The notes beneath the pieces are model-generated. The model was not told where the DNA came from, ran no database searches, and worked only from the letters and a program-made list of their open reading frames with translations. This document shows, in pieces, positions 24,200-33,297 of a stretch of DNA of 64,000 bases; position 1 is the stretch's first letter, and each line of letters opens with the position of its first letter. The position numbers were made by a program, and so were the translations under genes. The DNA is from Synechococcus sp. CBW1002 (GTDB lineage Bacteria; Cyanobacteriota; Cyanobacteriia; PCC-6307; Cyanobiaceae): the NCBI RefSeq assembly GCF_015840915.1, contig NZ_CP060398.1:2356001-2420000 (forward strand). Reading direction: 5' to 3'.

Positions 24200-24434
24200 G
24201 CCTGGCACGCACCGGGTCGAAGGAGTTGAGACCAGCCAGCCCCAGGCGGGACGTGAACCCGACGGAAGTCACCGCCATTGTCCAGTCTGCTCGACAAGGC
24301 AGCCCCCTGGTCCAGGGACATGGCCCCACTCGGATGGAGCGTGGACAGCTGAGAAAGACAGAGCCCAAAGGGGAGAGAGGGGCCGCAGCAGCACGCCAAA
24401 AACTCAGGCACAACTACTTATCCCCCTTTGCTCC

Positions 24435-24451
24435 GTTAAAGCGCTTTCAAC
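24435..24451 (+). promoter_or_regulatory. Palindromic element upstream of psbA
   Basis: GTTAAAGCGCTTTCAAC is an almost perfect 17-bp inverted repeat centred on AAAGCGCTTT, about 97 bp before the psbA ATG, in the 350-bp spacer between divergent feoB and psbA. It is a candidate operator. I see no convincing -35/-10 pair, so the promoter position is not fixed. The rest of this spacer holds no gene. Confidence 0.4.
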
Positions 24452-24547
24452 GCTAGTGTTGTATGAGGAAGAGACGGATGCTGGCTGGCTCGCCCTCCCG
24501 GCAGGGCCGGCCCCTCCGCTTTCCATTCTCCCTTTGCTCCTGTGTCG

Positions 24548-25627
24548 ATGACGTCTGCCTCAGTCGCTCCATCCCGGAGCCGCCCGTGGGAGTCCTTCAA
24601 GGACTGGATCACCAGCACCAGCAACCGCCTCTATATCGGCTGGTTCGGTGTGCTGATGATCCCCACCCTGCTGGCGGCAGCCATCTGCTTCATCGTTGCC
24701 TTCATCGCCGCTCCGCCCGTCGACATCGACGGCATCCGCGAACCCGTGACCGGCAGCCTGCTTTACGGCAACAACATCATCACGGCCGCGGTGGTGCCCA
24801 GCTCCAATGCGATCGGTCTGCACTTTTACCCCATCTGGGAAGCCAGCAGCCTCGATGAGTGGCTGTACAACGGCGGCCCCTATCAATTGATCATTTTCCA
24901 CTTCCTGATCGGCATCTATGCCTATCTCGGCCGCGAGTGGGAACTGAGCTACCGCCTGGGCATGCGCCCCTGGATTGCCGTGGCCTACAGCGCCCCCGTG
25001 GGTGCCGCCACCGCCGTGCTGCTGGTGTATGCCATCGGGCAAGGCTCCTTCTCAGACCCCATGCCCCTGGGGATCAGTGGCACCTTCAACTTCATGATGG
25101 TGCTGCAAGCCGAGCACAATGTGCTCATGCATCCGTTTCACATGCTGGGCGTGGCCGGCATCTTTGGTGGCAGCCTGTTCTCTGCCATGCATGGCTCCCT
25201 GGTGACCAGTTCCCTGGTGCGGGAAACCACCGAGAGCGAGTCTCAGAACCGTGGCTACAAGTTCGGTCAGGAAGAAGAGACCTATAACATTGTGGCCGCC
25301 CATGGCTACTTCGGCCGCCTGATCTTCCAGTACGCCTCCTTCAATAACAGCCGCAGCCTCCACTTCTTCCTGGCAGCCTGGCCTGTGGTGGGGATCTGGT
25401 TTGCCACCCTGGCCGTGATCAGCTTCTCGTTCAATGTCAACGGCTTCAACTTCAACCATTCAGTGCTCGACCATCAAGGCCATGTGATCAACACCTGGGC
25501 CGATATCCTCAACCGCGGCGGTCTTGGTATCGAGGCCATCCACGAACGCAATACCCATAACTTCCCGCTCGATCTTGCCGCAGTGGAAAGCCAGCCCGTT
25601 GCCCTGAGTGCACCAGCGATCGGTTAG
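24548..25627 (+). CDS. psbA: Photosystem II D1 protein, low-oxygen (D1') type
   Basis: D1 reaction-centre protein, 359 aa from the ATG at 24548 (a GTG two codons earlier is possible). Numbering matches standard D1. TyrZ Y161, H190, H198, H215, H272 and the Mn-cluster ligands D170, E189, H332, E333, H337, D342 and A344 are all present, so water oxidation is not excluded. Distinctive positions are A80, L158 and A286, the triad that marks the microaerobically induced D1' of Synechocystis, Anabaena and Thermosynechococcus. Also notable are A144, A162 and P171 (SFSDPMPLG), and E130 as in high-light forms. It lies upstream of sqr on the same strand and is divergent from feoB. Confidence 0.97.
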
Positions 25628-25673
25628 TGAGACTTTGAATCTCGCCCAGTCGATCCATCACTGAGCCGGTGCC

Positions 25674-25752
25674 GCTGGCTGCTCCGTGGAGCCAGCTGCG
25701 TCACTAAGACGCTCCCTCGCACGGGCCGGGATCACTCCAGGCCCGTGTTTCG
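25674..25752 (+). terminator. Two tandem hairpins after psbA
   Basis: GCTGGCT...AGCCAGC (25674-25696) is followed by CACGGGCC...GGCCCGTG (25720-25747) with TTTCGTT after it. The second has an 8-bp stem and a short T-rich tail and is the likely transcription terminator of psbA. sqr would then need its own promoter in 25750-25960. Confidence 0.65.
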
Positions 25753-25768
25753 TTCAGGCGTGCCTGCC

Positions 25769-25912
25769 ATGAACAGATCCACGAGCGACACCCAGAGCTC
25801 TCAACCTGCTCACCTTCGCTCCAGTGACCTGGACAGAATCCGACTTCTGAGATGGCAGCAAACCCTGGTGGGCTTGAGCTGCTGCCCCAGCCCAGCCCCT
25901 TTCTGCTGGTGA
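25769..25912 (+). CDS. Possible 47-aa ORF between psbA and sqr
   Basis: An open frame starting MNRSTSDTQSSQPAHLRSSD and ending CCPSPAPFCW. It has no recognisable domain or strong ribosome site. Listed because it is the only plausible frame in the psbA-sqr spacer; it may be chance. Confidence 0.15.
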   Translation: MNRSTSDTQSSQPAHLRSSDLDRIRLLRWQQTLVGLSCCPSPAPFCW

Positions 25913-25961
25913 TGCCTTGTTAGTTTTGATACCTGGACCCTGTTGATGGGCGTTAGCTCTG

Positions 25962-27290
25962 ATGGCTGCCTCTTCCCGTCATCATCAGGTCGTGATCGTC
26001 GGTGGGGGGTGCGCCGGCATCACGGTGGCCAACCTGCTGCTGCAGCAGCGTCCCGGCATTGAGATCGCGATCCTTGAGCCATCGGCGGATCATGACTACC
26101 AACCGGGCTGGACCTTGGTGGGGGGAGGGATCATGGCTCTCGAGCAGACCCGCCGCGATGAGGCCTCCCTGATCCCCACCGGGGTGACCTGGATCCAGGC
26201 TGCCGCCACGGGCTTCGATCCTGCGGCCAACGCCGTGTCCACCAGCAGCGGTGAGATCCTGACCTACGACACCCTGGTGATGGCCCTGGGTCTGCAGTCG
26301 CGCTGGGAGCGCATCGCGGGTCTTCCGGAGGCCCTGGGAAGCCATGGGGTGTGCAGCAACTACTCACCCCGCTATGCCCCCTACACCTGGGAAACGATCA
26401 AACAGTTCCAGGGCGGCACCGCGATCTTCACCGTGCCCGAGACACCGATCAAATGCGGCGGTGCGCCGCAGAAGGTGATGTATCTGGCCGACGATCACTT
26501 CAAGGCCAGAAGCGGCGTGGGGGTGAACACACGGGTGATCTTCTGCTCTGCCCTCACATCTCTGTTTTCCGTGCCGGCCTATGCACGCACCTTGGAGAGG
26601 GTGGTACGGAACCGCGGCATCGAAGTGCATTTCGGCTGGAATCTCAGGCAGGTTCGGGCCAAGGAGCAGGTGGCGGTCTTTGAAGTGGAGGAGCCAGGCG
26701 GCAGCAAGCGCATCGAGGAACTGTCCTTCGCGATGCTCCACGCTGTGCCGCCGATGACAGCACCGGAGGTGGTGTCTGGCAGTCCGCTGGCGGGCGACGG
26801 ACCTGGCGGCTGGGCGGCGACAGATCCGTTCACGCTGCAGCATCCCAGCTGGCCGAATGTGTTCTGCCTGGGCGATGTGGCCGGCCTGCCCACCTCCAAG
26901 ACAGCCGGTGCCGTTCGAGGAGAAGCCCCGGTGGTGTCGGCCAATCTGCTGGCTTTCCTGGATGGCAAGCCCCTGGATGCTCAGTACGACGGCTACACGG
27001 TGTGCCCCCTGATCACCGGCTACGGCAACGTGGTGATGGCGGAGTTCGATTACAGCCAGAAGCCGGTGAGCTCCTTCCTGGTGGACCCCACCAAGCCGCG
27101 CTGGAGCATGTGGCTGATGAAGACCCGCCTGTTGCCATGGCTCTACTGGAACCGAATGCTGCCCGGGAAGCCCCACGAAAGCCGCTACCTCAAACCCTTC
27201 GCACCGTTGGTGCACCTGTTGCGGCTGGACTATCGCGAATCGGACAGCAGCGAGGCCGAATCGGGAGCCGGCCAGGCCGGAACCTGCTGA
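25962..27290 (+). CDS. sqr: Sulfide:quinone oxidoreductase, type II
   Basis: FAD-dependent enzyme (442 aa) that oxidises sulfide and passes electrons to the quinone pool, peripherally bound to the membrane. Visible: the N-terminal dinucleotide fold (VVIVGGGCAGITVANLLL), the redox cysteines Cys165 in IKCGGAPQKVMYLAD and Cys348 in TVCPLITGYG, the FAD segment FCLGDVAGLPTSKTAGAV, and C-terminal hydrophobic/basic helices (WMLWLMK-type, WLYWNRMLPGK). The two-cysteine signatures match type II SQR (mitochondrial and Synechocystis SuoS-like). ATG at 25962. It ends 9 bp from the convergent ArsR gene. Likely role: sulfide detoxification or use as an electron donor. Confidence 0.9.
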   Translation: MAASSRHHQVVIVGGGCAGITVANLLLQQRPGIEIAILEPSADHDYQPGWTLVGGGIMALEQTRRDEASLIPTGVTWIQAAATGFDPAANAVSTSSGEILTYDTLVMALGLQSRWERIAGLPEALGSHGVCSNYSPRYAPYTWETIKQFQGGTAIFTVPETPIKCGGAPQKVMYLADDHFKARSGVGVNTRVIFCSALTSLFSVPAYARTLERVVRNRGIEVHFGWNLRQVRAKEQVAVFEVEEPGGSKRIEELSFAMLHAVPPMTAPEVVSGSPLAGDGPGGWAATDPFTLQHPSWPNVFCLGDVAGLPTSKTAGAVRGEAPVVSANLLAFLDGKPLDAQYDGYTVCPLITGYGNVVMAEFDYSQKPVSSFLVDPTKPRWSMWLMKTRLLPWLYWNRMLPGKPHESRYLKPFAPLVHLLRLDYRESDSSEAESGAGQAGTC

Positions 27291-27299
27291 GCCGAGAGC

Positions 27300-27620
27300 T
27301 CAGGCAGCCCTGAGTTGCTGCAGCTGCTGCTCCAGCCTCTGCTTCAGCCGGGTCTGGACCAAGGTGCAGAGGTCTTGCACCAAGGGATCATCAGCGAGGT
27401 AGATCATCCGCACCCCATCGCGCTCACAGCTCACCAGCCCGGCACGCTGCAGCTGGCCCAGCTGACGGCTGATGTGGGACTGGGAGAAACCGGTGGCCTC
27501 GATCAAGGAGGCCACGTCCATCGGCCCCTTCTGCAGGTGACAGAGCAGCTGCAACCGGGCCGGCTCGCTCAGGAGCCTGAAAAACTGGCTGTACTCCTCA
27601 AGGAGCTGAGGACTGGGCAT
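27300..27620 (-). CDS. ArsR-family transcriptional repressor
   Basis: 106-aa winged-helix regulator: LSEPARLQLLCHLQKGPMDV, recognition helix GFSQSHISRQLGQLQRAGLV, wing ERDGVRMIYLADD. It has no classical CxC metal site in the recognition region but has Cys27 (helix 2), Cys65 (start of the wing) and Cys85 (last helix). C27/C85 sit roughly where the dithiol of persulfide-sensing SqrR/BigR proteins lies. Adjacent to sqr, so probably its regulator, by analogy with the ArsR-type SuoR of Synechocystis. I chose the ATG at 27620; the frame opens at a GTG at 27638. Confidence 0.88.
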   Translation of the reverse strand: MPSPQLLEEYSQFFRLLSEPARLQLLCHLQKGPMDVASLIEATGFSQSHISRQLGQLQRAGLVSCERDGVRMIYLADDPLVQDLCTLVQTRLKQRLEQQLQQLRAA

Positions 27621-27648
27621 GGACCCGGCAACACCCACGGCAGAAGGG

Positions 27649-28227
27649 TTATGTCTCTGTACGCATTATGCACGCTGCCGGCAAGGGCTGACTGCCCATG
27701 GGGAGCGGATCACCGGGCAGGAAGCGCTGGATGAAGGTGGCCAGGAGCATCGGGCCGCAGCGGCGCTGCCAGCTGGTCGCCCCCGGCAGCCGGCGCCAGC
27801 ATTCCACCTGCAGACGGGGAACGTGGCGGCCCACCAGCGTCAACAGATAGCGGTAGTCGGCATCGGCGGCCTGGTCGGCTCCAGCCAGAGGGGCCGCCCC
27901 TGGCTGGGAGCTCACGAAAGCGGCGAGGAACGTCGAGGCGTTGCCGCCCTGGCGCAGGGCCGCGGCAAACCTCCAGGCGGCGCCGGTGGGATAGCCGTCG
28001 TGATGAAGGGTGAGATGGCGCACTGGAGCATCCGGGAAGCGGGCGAAGGTATAAACGGCGCGGGTGGCCAAGGGAAGCGAGCGGCTGCACCGAATGAGTG
28101 CCACCGCTGTCTCAGAGCCCCAGGCAGGCCCGCATGGGGCTGCCTCGTCTCGACTGCGATCCTTCCGCCCACTGGTGGCTCCAACAGTGCTGGCTCCGTG
28201 TCCCGAGCCCATGAGGCCGGCTGTCAT
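27649..28227 (-). CDS. Protein of unknown function upstream of arsR
   Basis: 192 aa from the ATG at 28227. The core reads like a compact conserved domain: YTFARFPDAPVRHLTLHHDG, YPTGAAWRFAAALRQG, YRYLLTL, VECWRRLP, and CGPMLLATFIQRFLPG. I do not recognise a named family. There is no signal peptide or membrane helix. It lies 28 bp upstream of arsR on the same strand and could form an operon with it. The N-terminal ~50 residues are Gly/Ser-rich and poorly patterned, so the true start may be further in. Confidence 0.6.
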   Translation of the reverse strand: MTAGLMGSGHGASTVGATSGRKDRSRDEAAPCGPAWGSETAVALIRCSRSLPLATRAVYTFARFPDAPVRHLTLHHDGYPTGAAWRFAAALRQGGNASTFLAAFVSSQPGAAPLAGADQAADADYRYLLTLVGRHVPRLQVECWRRLPGATSWQRRCGPMLLATFIQRFLPGDPLPMGSQPLPAACIMRTET

Positions 28228-28353
28228 GGCGTTCAAGCCGTCATCAGAGCCGCTGTGCCATCTACCGCCTTGCTGCCAGTCTGCTGCAAGGGCACGATCA
28301 GCGGACTGCTTGCACCGGCAAGGGCTGAAAGTTCAAACCTAGTATGATCCAAA

Positions 28354-32208: not shown

Positions 32209-33297
32209 GTGTGCCGTCCCGGAGATCTGCGAGCAAAGTCGCTGGAGCTTCTCCAGGATTGAATCCGCTGTGGCCGTCCAGTTGAACGGCGCCTTGGTCT
32301 TGTTGTAGGCCGCCACGAATTGCTCGATCTTGGAGATCAACTCCTTGACGCTGGAGAAGCTGCCGCGTCGGATCGCCCGCTGGGTGATGATCCCAAACCA
32401 ACGCTCCACCTGGTTGATCCAGGAGGCGTAGGTCGGTGTGTAGTGCACGTGGAAGCGGGGCCGCTGCGCCAGCCAGGCCCTCACCTTGGCGTGCTTGTGG
32501 GTGCAGTAGTTGTCGACGATCAAGTGGACATCAAGCTCCTCGGGGACCGACTTCTCGATCTGGCGCAGGAACCCCAGGAACTCCTGATGCCTATGGCGGG
32601 GCTTGCATTGGGTGATCACCTCGCCTGTTGCCACATCCAGAGCAGCGAACAGCGTGGTGGTGCCGTGGCGGATGTAGTCGTGGGTGACGCCCTCCACGTA
32701 ACCCAGGCCCATGGGCAACAGCGGCTGGGTGCGGTCCAGTGCCTGGATCTGCGTCTTCTCGTCGACGCAGAGCACCATCGCCTTATCCGGAGGGTTCAGG
32801 TACAGGCCGACGATGTCGCGGACCTTCTCCACAAAGAACGGGTCGGTGGAGAGCTTGAACGACTTCTGCCGGTGGGGCTGGACCGAGAAAGTCTGCAGCC
32901 AGCGGTGAACGGTGGTTTTGGAGATGCCGGTGGCAGCCGCGAGGGAGCGCGCAGACCACTGGGTGCTGCCATCGGTGGGCTTGGTCTGCAGTGCCCGGTT
33001 GATCACCTCCGCCACCGTGTCGTCCTCGTAGGTGCGAGGCCTACCCGGCCGCAGCTCGTCATGCAGGCCCTCCAGGCCCAGCTCCCGGTACCGCTTGCGC
33101 CACTTGCCAACGGTCATCCCCGTCAGCCCCATCCGTTTGGCGATGGCGGTGTTGGTCTCGCCGGCACCGCAGGCCAGCACGATCTGAGCGCGCTGCACGA
33201 TCGAATGCGGCAACGACCGGGAATTTGCAAGGGCCCGCAACTGCTGAACCTCGTCCTCGCTGAGGACCAGCGGAGGCATCGGACGACCAAGCGCCAC
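32206..33297 (-). CDS. IS630-family transposase
   Basis: 363 aa. N-terminal helix-turn-helix domain ([20 protein letters not shown]) and a Tc1/mariner-like DDE catalytic domain: [32 protein letters not shown] and [10 protein letters not shown] supply D, D and E. The frame is intact, so the element is probably active or recently active. The stop TAG is built from the duplicated target TA plus the next host base. ATG-equivalent start at 33297; downstream [10 protein letters not shown] is an alternative. Confidence 0.93.

Follow-up and report, generated by a model that had tools for sequence, protein, structure and literature searches.

A candidate ArsR-type persulfide sensor next to sqr in Synechococcus sp. 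CBW1002 and its predicted persulfide dioxygenase regulon

Genes and features at the arsR locus

The window, by which we mean the whole stretch of 64,000 nucleotides of Synechococcus sp. CBW1002 that was analysed (NZ_CP060398.1, positions 2,356,001 to 2,420,000), contains an arsR-type gene that converges on a gene for sulfide:quinone oxidoreductase (sqr). The sqr stop codon runs up to 27290 and that of arsR starts at 27300, so that 9 bp lie between the two genes. The features are as follows, in window coordinates.

24542..25627, plus strand: psbA, photosystem II D1 (TIGR01151, 710 bits), upstream of sqr; context, not a shown target
25962..27290, plus strand: sqr, type II sulfide:quinone oxidoreductase (mitochondrial SQR chains, E 2.3e-109), convergent with arsR
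27300..27638, minus strand: gene for a predicted arsR-type repressor, probable GTG start, 112 aa (from the ORF list, orthologs and HTH_5)
27366..27368, minus strand: Cys85 codon, middle of alpha5 by structural register; 81/81 orthologs, 40/40 wider relatives
27426..27428, minus strand: Cys65 codon, wing strand; 73/81 orthologs, 0/40 wider relatives
27540..27542, minus strand: Cys27 codon, alpha2 by structural register; 80/81 orthologs, 37/40 wider cyanobacterial relatives
27650..27667, minus strand: predicted operator AATGCGTACAGAGACATA at the arsR promoter, 18.4 bits with a position weight matrix (PWM)

The open reading frame from the ATG at 27620 (27303-27620, minus strand) encodes 106 amino acids. 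Translation probably begins at the GTG at 27638, because many orthologs have an ATG at that place and a similar short stretch before MPSP. Residue numbers herein count from the ATG at 27620, and the GTG start would add 6 to each of them. The product belongs to the ArsR/SmtB superfamily with its winged-helix ArsR domain, as observed with profiles, an AlphaFold2 model and structure alignment. Pfam HTH_5 was matched with an E value of 1.7e-11 (44.3 bits, cut-off 22) and the NCBIfam metalloregulator ArsR/SmtB model (NF033788) with 1.9e-21 (75.7 bits, cut-off 55), and the AlphaFold2 model (71 sequences, mean pLDDT 90.7) aligned with solved ArsR structures with Z scores of 13-15. The translation contains neither a CxC motif, and so lacks the CVC/CxC signature of classical As(III)-responsive ArsR proteins in alpha3, nor an adjacent cysteine pair such as that of RexT in alpha3. 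These results confirmed an earlier note on this DNA insofar as it described an ArsR-fold protein with cysteines at 27, 65 and 85 and without a CxC metal site, 9 bp from a type II sqr.

For the comparative analysis, 81 orthologs were aligned, namely the window's protein and those of 80 further loci; of 85 ortholog-level matches, four were dropped, i.e. one at a contig end (G073), one frame-broken (G101 752392) and two partial (G186 and G100). The wider relatives are the best 40 of a longer list from other cyanobacterial families (L231-L270). The nearest named relative found was Synechococcus sp. CS-1328, with an ArsR identity of 98%, and in the sister locus of this relative (L031/L111) arsR is kept (99%) and sqr is present beside it only as fragments. 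Copies of this cyanobacterial arsR (84% and 79%) were also seen on contigs labelled Bifidobacterium breve (L119) and Chitinophagaceae MAGs (L180), which are probably mis-binned. Directly upstream of arsR, a 195-aa ORF without a Pfam match was observed (27649-28236, minus strand), and its homologues sit beyond the persulfide dioxygenase gene in L093, L095 and L101. The psbA product (24542-25627) has the variant residues A80 and L158, which we take to be marks of the low-oxygen D1' form, and the Mn-ligand motifs are kept.

A predicted operator and the persulfide dioxygenase genes

An 18-bp palindrome, WATGN10CATA, was found within 350 bp upstream of arsR in 69 of the 81 loci, compared with an average of 0.13 loci and a maximum of 2 over 100 mononucleotide shuffles; it was absent from this interval in the other 12. 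At the window's arsR promoter, the site overlaps a CATAAT hexamer resembling a -10 element and is separated by 11 bp from the GTG start downstream. This overlap with the promoter, together with the fold family, suggests that the protein represses and does not activate. The PWM was built from arsR-upstream sites, this one included in the training set, and ranks it as the best site in the window, with a runner-up of 5.3 bits; the maxima of five shuffled windows ranged from 0.5 to 13.4. Given the place of this site in the training set, sites elsewhere provide the more telling test. Where the gene for a persulfide dioxygenase (PDO) is divergent from arsR, two sites are often present, one per gene.

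The strict form of the motif, WATGN4TAN4CATA, occurs at a single place in the 3.85-Mb genome that contains the window (C1 2614804-2614821), and this place is the promoter of the PDO gene, 20 bp before its ATG; the reversed control of the strict pattern gave no match in the same 3.85 Mb. The PDO, a persulfide dioxygenase-rhodanese fusion, matches BpPRF (5ve3, E 5e-120), and its gene is followed by those of a membrane rhodanese and a TauE protein. A looser pattern says little by itself, because it gave 30 two-strand matches at 28 places in this genome compared with 16 in the control, and 13 of these places are copies of one repeat. One of the 13 identical copies of this dispersed repeat, AATGCAAGCCCCGCCATA, stands in the window at 32592-32609 (minus strand). 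In addition, a weaker site of 11.1 bits (L198 5031-5048) was seen in the window's own genome directly before a DUF3122 gene that is divergent from PDO. The strict pattern gave 67 strand matches, compared with 10 in the control, in a set of 17 complete or near-complete genomes that have an ortholog, and the corresponding numbers were 25 and 17 in two genomes without an ortholog (G058 and G017) and 3 and 4 in G100, which has a partial ortholog and no PDO. A distant site precedes a PDO in G062, G089, G139 and G054, and other distant matches, e.g. G089 715273 and G054 379491, adjoin none of the query genes. The PDO of G054 reads with an internal stop. The motif was found in 0 of the 40 upstream regions of the wider cyanobacterial relatives, suggesting that the operator is a family-level trait.

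Among 201 family genomes, PDO was present in 70 of the 73 with an ortholog and in 4 of the 128 without (Fisher p 4e-45, a value that is overstated because the species are related). The three exceptions are G080, G100 and G186, the last two with only partial ArsR matches. Within 5 kb of arsR, a PDO of at least 60% identity was found at 57 of the 81 loci, mostly divergent from arsR; a looser count of 59/81 includes L105 and L106, in which only a rhodanese stretch matched. The same interval holds a TauE homologue at 51/81 loci, sqr at 17/81 and psbA at 11/81, gene pieces included, and, in the wider relatives, PDO at 14/40 (dioxygenase half matched) and TauE at 11/40. In nineteen genomes, PDO is missing from the 5 kb around every arsR copy, and one of them (G080) has no PDO at all. 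In 16 of the remaining 18, the genome of the window included, a PDO has a site scoring 18.9-25.4 bits no more than 100 bp from its aligned start. In G083 and in G051, the only PDO is remote from arsR and lacks a site (best scores -14.6 and -18.0 bits); arsR in these genomes has two sites of its own and adjoins a rhodanese and a TauE-like stretch. Where another PDO already bears the site, extra PDO copies carry one in 1 of 8 cases (G139), although the seven siteless copies include one truncated match and one with only 34 bp of upstream DNA. By these predicted sites, one class of PDO bears the operator and a second class does not. The second-class PDO-rhodanese genes are L321 (G083), L322 (G051), L313-L315 (G089, G154 and G174), L325 (G037) and L324 (G169).

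Thus, PDO co-occurrence, the shared operator and the conservation of C27 and C85 described below make a repressor of the persulfide type much the best interpretation of the gene, and the earlier note's proposal of a persulfide-responsive repressor is well supported on these three grounds, none of which was available to that note. We propose, with a probability of roughly 0.77, that this ArsR is a dimeric repressor that senses sulfane sulfur and controls its own gene together with an unlinked PDO operon. The target predicted most strongly is the PDO elsewhere on the chromosome, not the adjoining sqr, and the predicted regulon in the window's genome consists of arsR and the PDO operon. In Synechococcus PCC 7002, the route through SQR and PDO is established (PMC7042703).

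The cysteine pair and the proposed mechanism

Judged from the alignments, C27 and C85 are the conserved pair. The single C27S protein among the 81 orthologs belongs to G080, the genome without PDO. L267, in the wider family, is also C27S, yet has a PDO nearby, and therefore C27 need not be required in every family member. In 36 of the 40 wider relatives, an extra cysteine at 89 accompanies C85 (an LCxLVC-like alpha5). C65, which is missing in L086 and L104-L110 (8/81), was ruled out as a member of the sensing pair on its conservation (73/81 orthologs, 0/40 wider relatives), and the uncertainty that the earlier note attached to this third cysteine is answered by the conservation of the other two (80/81 and 81/81).

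In structure alignments, residues 1-95 of the model align with BigR 3pqj_A 16-110 (95 residues) and residues 4-95 with SqrR 6o8l 18-109 (92 residues), both without a gap; other SqrR/BigR chains gave gaps of 1-2 residues, which shift the register towards the C terminus by the same amount. The sensing cysteines of these proteins we take to be SqrR C41 and BigR C42 in alpha2 and SqrR C107 and BigR C108 in alpha5. In the ungapped register, C27 falls on BigR 42 and SqrR 41, and the earlier placement of this residue at the alpha2 position is borne out. C85, which had been assigned to the alpha5 position, does not stand there: it falls on BigR 100 and SqrR 99, 8 residues N-terminal to the alpha5 cysteine, and the equivalent place in 3pqj_A and 6o8l is residue 93, a lysine in 39 and an arginine in 39 of the 81 orthologs (K/R 78/81). 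The spacing from C27 to C85 is 58. For Cys50 and Cys116 of SoxR and sHdrR, the alpha2-alpha5 spacing is 66 (PMC10451225, PMC12423496); HlyU is printed with Cys38 and Cys101, a spacing of 63 that is at odds with 66 and was not used (PMC10509353). The curated BigR model NF040642 gave 40.8 bits, below its cut-off of 155. An operator before a sulfide or persulfide metabolism gene, as in SqrR/BigR-type systems, is found here as predicted sites at the PDO promoters. This ArsR is predicted to work like SqrR and BigR while lacking their alpha5 cysteine, and because C85 lies 8 residues away from the place of that cysteine, the bridge of SqrR is not directly transferable. With respect to zinc, C85 aligns with SmtB residue 111 (offset 26), and the SmtB alpha5 ligands, which we take to be 104/106 and 117'/120' (D/H/H/E), fall on D78, L80, R91 and Q94, unlike the zinc site of SmtB/CzrA.

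The following mechanism is proposed. First, the resting, reduced dimer would bind WATGN10CATA at its own promoter (27650-27667) and at the promoter of the PDO operon (C1 2614804-2614821), which would supply the PDO-rhodanese fusion, the membrane rhodanese and a TauE-type sulfite exporter. Second, the ArsR-fold dimer would sense glutathione persulfide or polysulfide, i.e. the product of SQR; upon a rise in persulfide, from SQR or from other reactions, Cys27 and Cys85 would be sulfurated and the dimer would leave the operator. Third, the resulting derepression would allow persulfide to be oxidised to sulfite, converted to thiosulfate and exported.

The bridge may join C27 and C85 within one protomer. 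A bond across the dimer, C85-C85' or C27-C85', with the same regulon and effector, is the less likely arrangement. In its favour, C85 stands on SmtB 111, the SmtB ligands place the two-fold axis near 111-112, and C85 alone among the cysteines is invariant in all 121 sequences (81 orthologs and 40 wider relatives). However, C27 is nearly invariant too, and the one ortholog of the 81 that lacks it comes from a genome lacking PDO.

Breadth of the regulon and comparison with known regulators

The proximity of sqr had been offered in the earlier note as support for sulfide sensing, and sqr and psbA as the genes under control. The adjacency counts for little in this case, since the two genes are convergent and the PWM predicted no operator before sqr or psbA in the window (best score -4.7 across 24209-25961, compared with 18.4 at arsR). 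It is improbable that the repressor mainly controls the adjoining sqr and psbA with PDO as a secondary target. The two genes do stand together in the window, sqr is found in 59 of the 73 family genomes with an ortholog compared with 3 of the 128 without, and a predicted operator lies 56-83 bp before the aligned sqr start in four relatives (L052, L064, L083 and L086); nevertheless, 12 of the 14 genomes with an ortholog but no sqr match have PDO. The earlier interpretation is thus partly supported as a whole. The genome that contains the window encodes another type II SQR (L199 3337-4566), 59% identical, without an operator; this gene and an SmtB-like ArsR (L200) were considered as targets and not counted, with best operator scores of 2.9 and 6.0, respectively. 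A selenocysteine form of SQR was also considered, as many SQR matches have one in-frame TGA, and was rejected: the alignments are uninterrupted in the seven loci read, and the TGA is therefore taken as the terminal stop in those seven.

Based on the predicted sites, the regulon is extended or trimmed between lineages. In L064, L073, L077 and L078, a Rieske PetC gene has an operator 23 bp in front of it. In L064 (4994-9961), the PetC gene lies in a run with Tll0287-like, DUF4079 and psbA genes, and it is possible that this run is a sulfide/low-oxygen photosynthesis cluster under the same repressor. A strong operator was also seen near cydA, the gene for cytochrome bd oxidase subunit I, in L067, L070 and L078, about 3.9-4.6 kb upstream of arsR; cytochrome bd resists sulfide. 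In L070 and L078, this operator is also 14 bp in front of a gene similar to the DUF3122 gene in L198. Pfam domains for loci of the PetC and cydA regions were determined on L064, L067 and L198.

We tentatively suggest, at somewhat less than even odds, that cyanobacteria hold an ArsR persulfide-sensor lineage of their own, distinct from SqrR/BigR. In this lineage, the alpha5 partner cysteine would lie two helical turns earlier, near the two-fold axis of the dimer (C85, joined by a further C89 in most other cyanobacterial relatives examined), persulfide might be sensed through a bridge that lies at the dimer interface or crosses it, and the regulon of some relatives would also cover sqr, the Rieske PetC gene by the Tll0287/D1 cluster and possibly cytochrome bd. 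If so, a regulon that reaches PetC, Tll0287, D1 and cytochrome bd would tie sulfide sensing to alternative parts of photosystem II and electron transport. Should the displaced cysteine prove functional, the geometry of dithiol persulfide sensors would be less constrained than is apparent from the solved structures. The analysis thereby offers a defined operator, a small regulon and two candidate cysteines for testing.

Two other effectors were weighed. A general thiol or peroxide sensor, in which C27 and C85 form a plain disulfide upon oxidation and persulfide is not distinguished, is rather improbable: RexT is a cyanobacterial ArsR-fold sensor of H2O2 (PMC8960804), and dithiol sensors often respond to several oxidants, but RexT has adjacent alpha3 cysteines and a thioredoxin gene as its target, whereas the window's ArsR is without an adjacent pair and its predicted operator marks PDO genes. 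An arsenite, antimonite or soft-metal sensor is highly improbable, for although C27, C65 and C85 could form a trigonal S3 thiolate site, the sqr linkage mirrors the arsenite- and sulfide-linked SuoR system and ArsR genes near cyanobacterial sqr have been taken as arsenic regulators (PMC11304991, PMC4307280), five of the eight orthologs without C65 (L086, L104, L108, L109 and L110) keep PDO within 5 kb, C65 occurs in 0 of the 40 wider relatives, the CxC motif and the SmtB alpha5 ligands are missing, and the linked genes encode PDO, rhodanese and TauE, with no ars gene noticed on reading through the listed neighbours.

The persulfide reading can be placed beside several reports. Grim and Dick 2016 found sqr close to low-oxygen or anaerobic psbA in 15 genomes, counted 27 sqr genes in the vicinity of arsR-like genes, and named the psbA-sqr-arsR linkage an attractive target for study (PMC5061849). 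Others described type II sqr genes preceded by arsR, most of them with tauE alongside, as well as petC2 next to sqr, and interpreted the arsR gene as arsenic control (PMC11304991). The literature searched, which left most subscription papers outside and was seen in part, yielded no published account of the ortholog, the operator or the shifted cysteine, a result of little weight. SuoR of Synechocystis (sll5035) is the studied cyanobacterial sqr regulator and, like the window's ArsR, a cyanobacterial ArsR-like repressor adjoining sqr; by its description, it is set apart by a type I SQR and an arsenite transporter on a plasmid, compared with a type II SQR and a PDO/TauE regulon here (PMC4307280). 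RexT of Nostoc is likewise a cyanobacterial ArsR-fold thiol sensor, and differs in its vicinal alpha3 cysteines, its response to H2O2 and its thioredoxin target (PMC8960804). The best sequence match in the PDB is Rv0081 of M. tuberculosis (E 1.3e-11, and 5.3e-14 in a second search), which is assigned to a hypoxia-linked cluster (PMC10509353); this match was counted against the persulfide reading. Rv0081 has no cysteine at the aligned places. SmtB of Synechococcus shares the fold (1r22_B, Z 14.6), and its zinc-site residues are not conserved in the window's ArsR.

The closest comparison is that with the persulfide sensors SqrR (Rhodobacter capsulatus), BigR (Xylella and Acinetobacter), SoxR, sHdrR, HlyU and YgaV, with which the ArsR fold is common and ungapped over 92-95 residues (6o8l, 3pqj_A). 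Sensors of the SqrR/BigR family are known for a tetrasulfide bridge formed with persulfide and for a lack of response to H2O2. The alpha2 cysteine of SqrR and BigR is in the same place as C27, and the window's ArsR is predicted to control PDO, rhodanese and TauE genes; the targets of BigR itself reportedly include PDO, rhodanese and TauE-like genes. The difference lies in alpha5, where the spacing from the alpha2 cysteine is 66 in SqrR (41/107) and BigR (42/108), compared with 58 in the window's ArsR.
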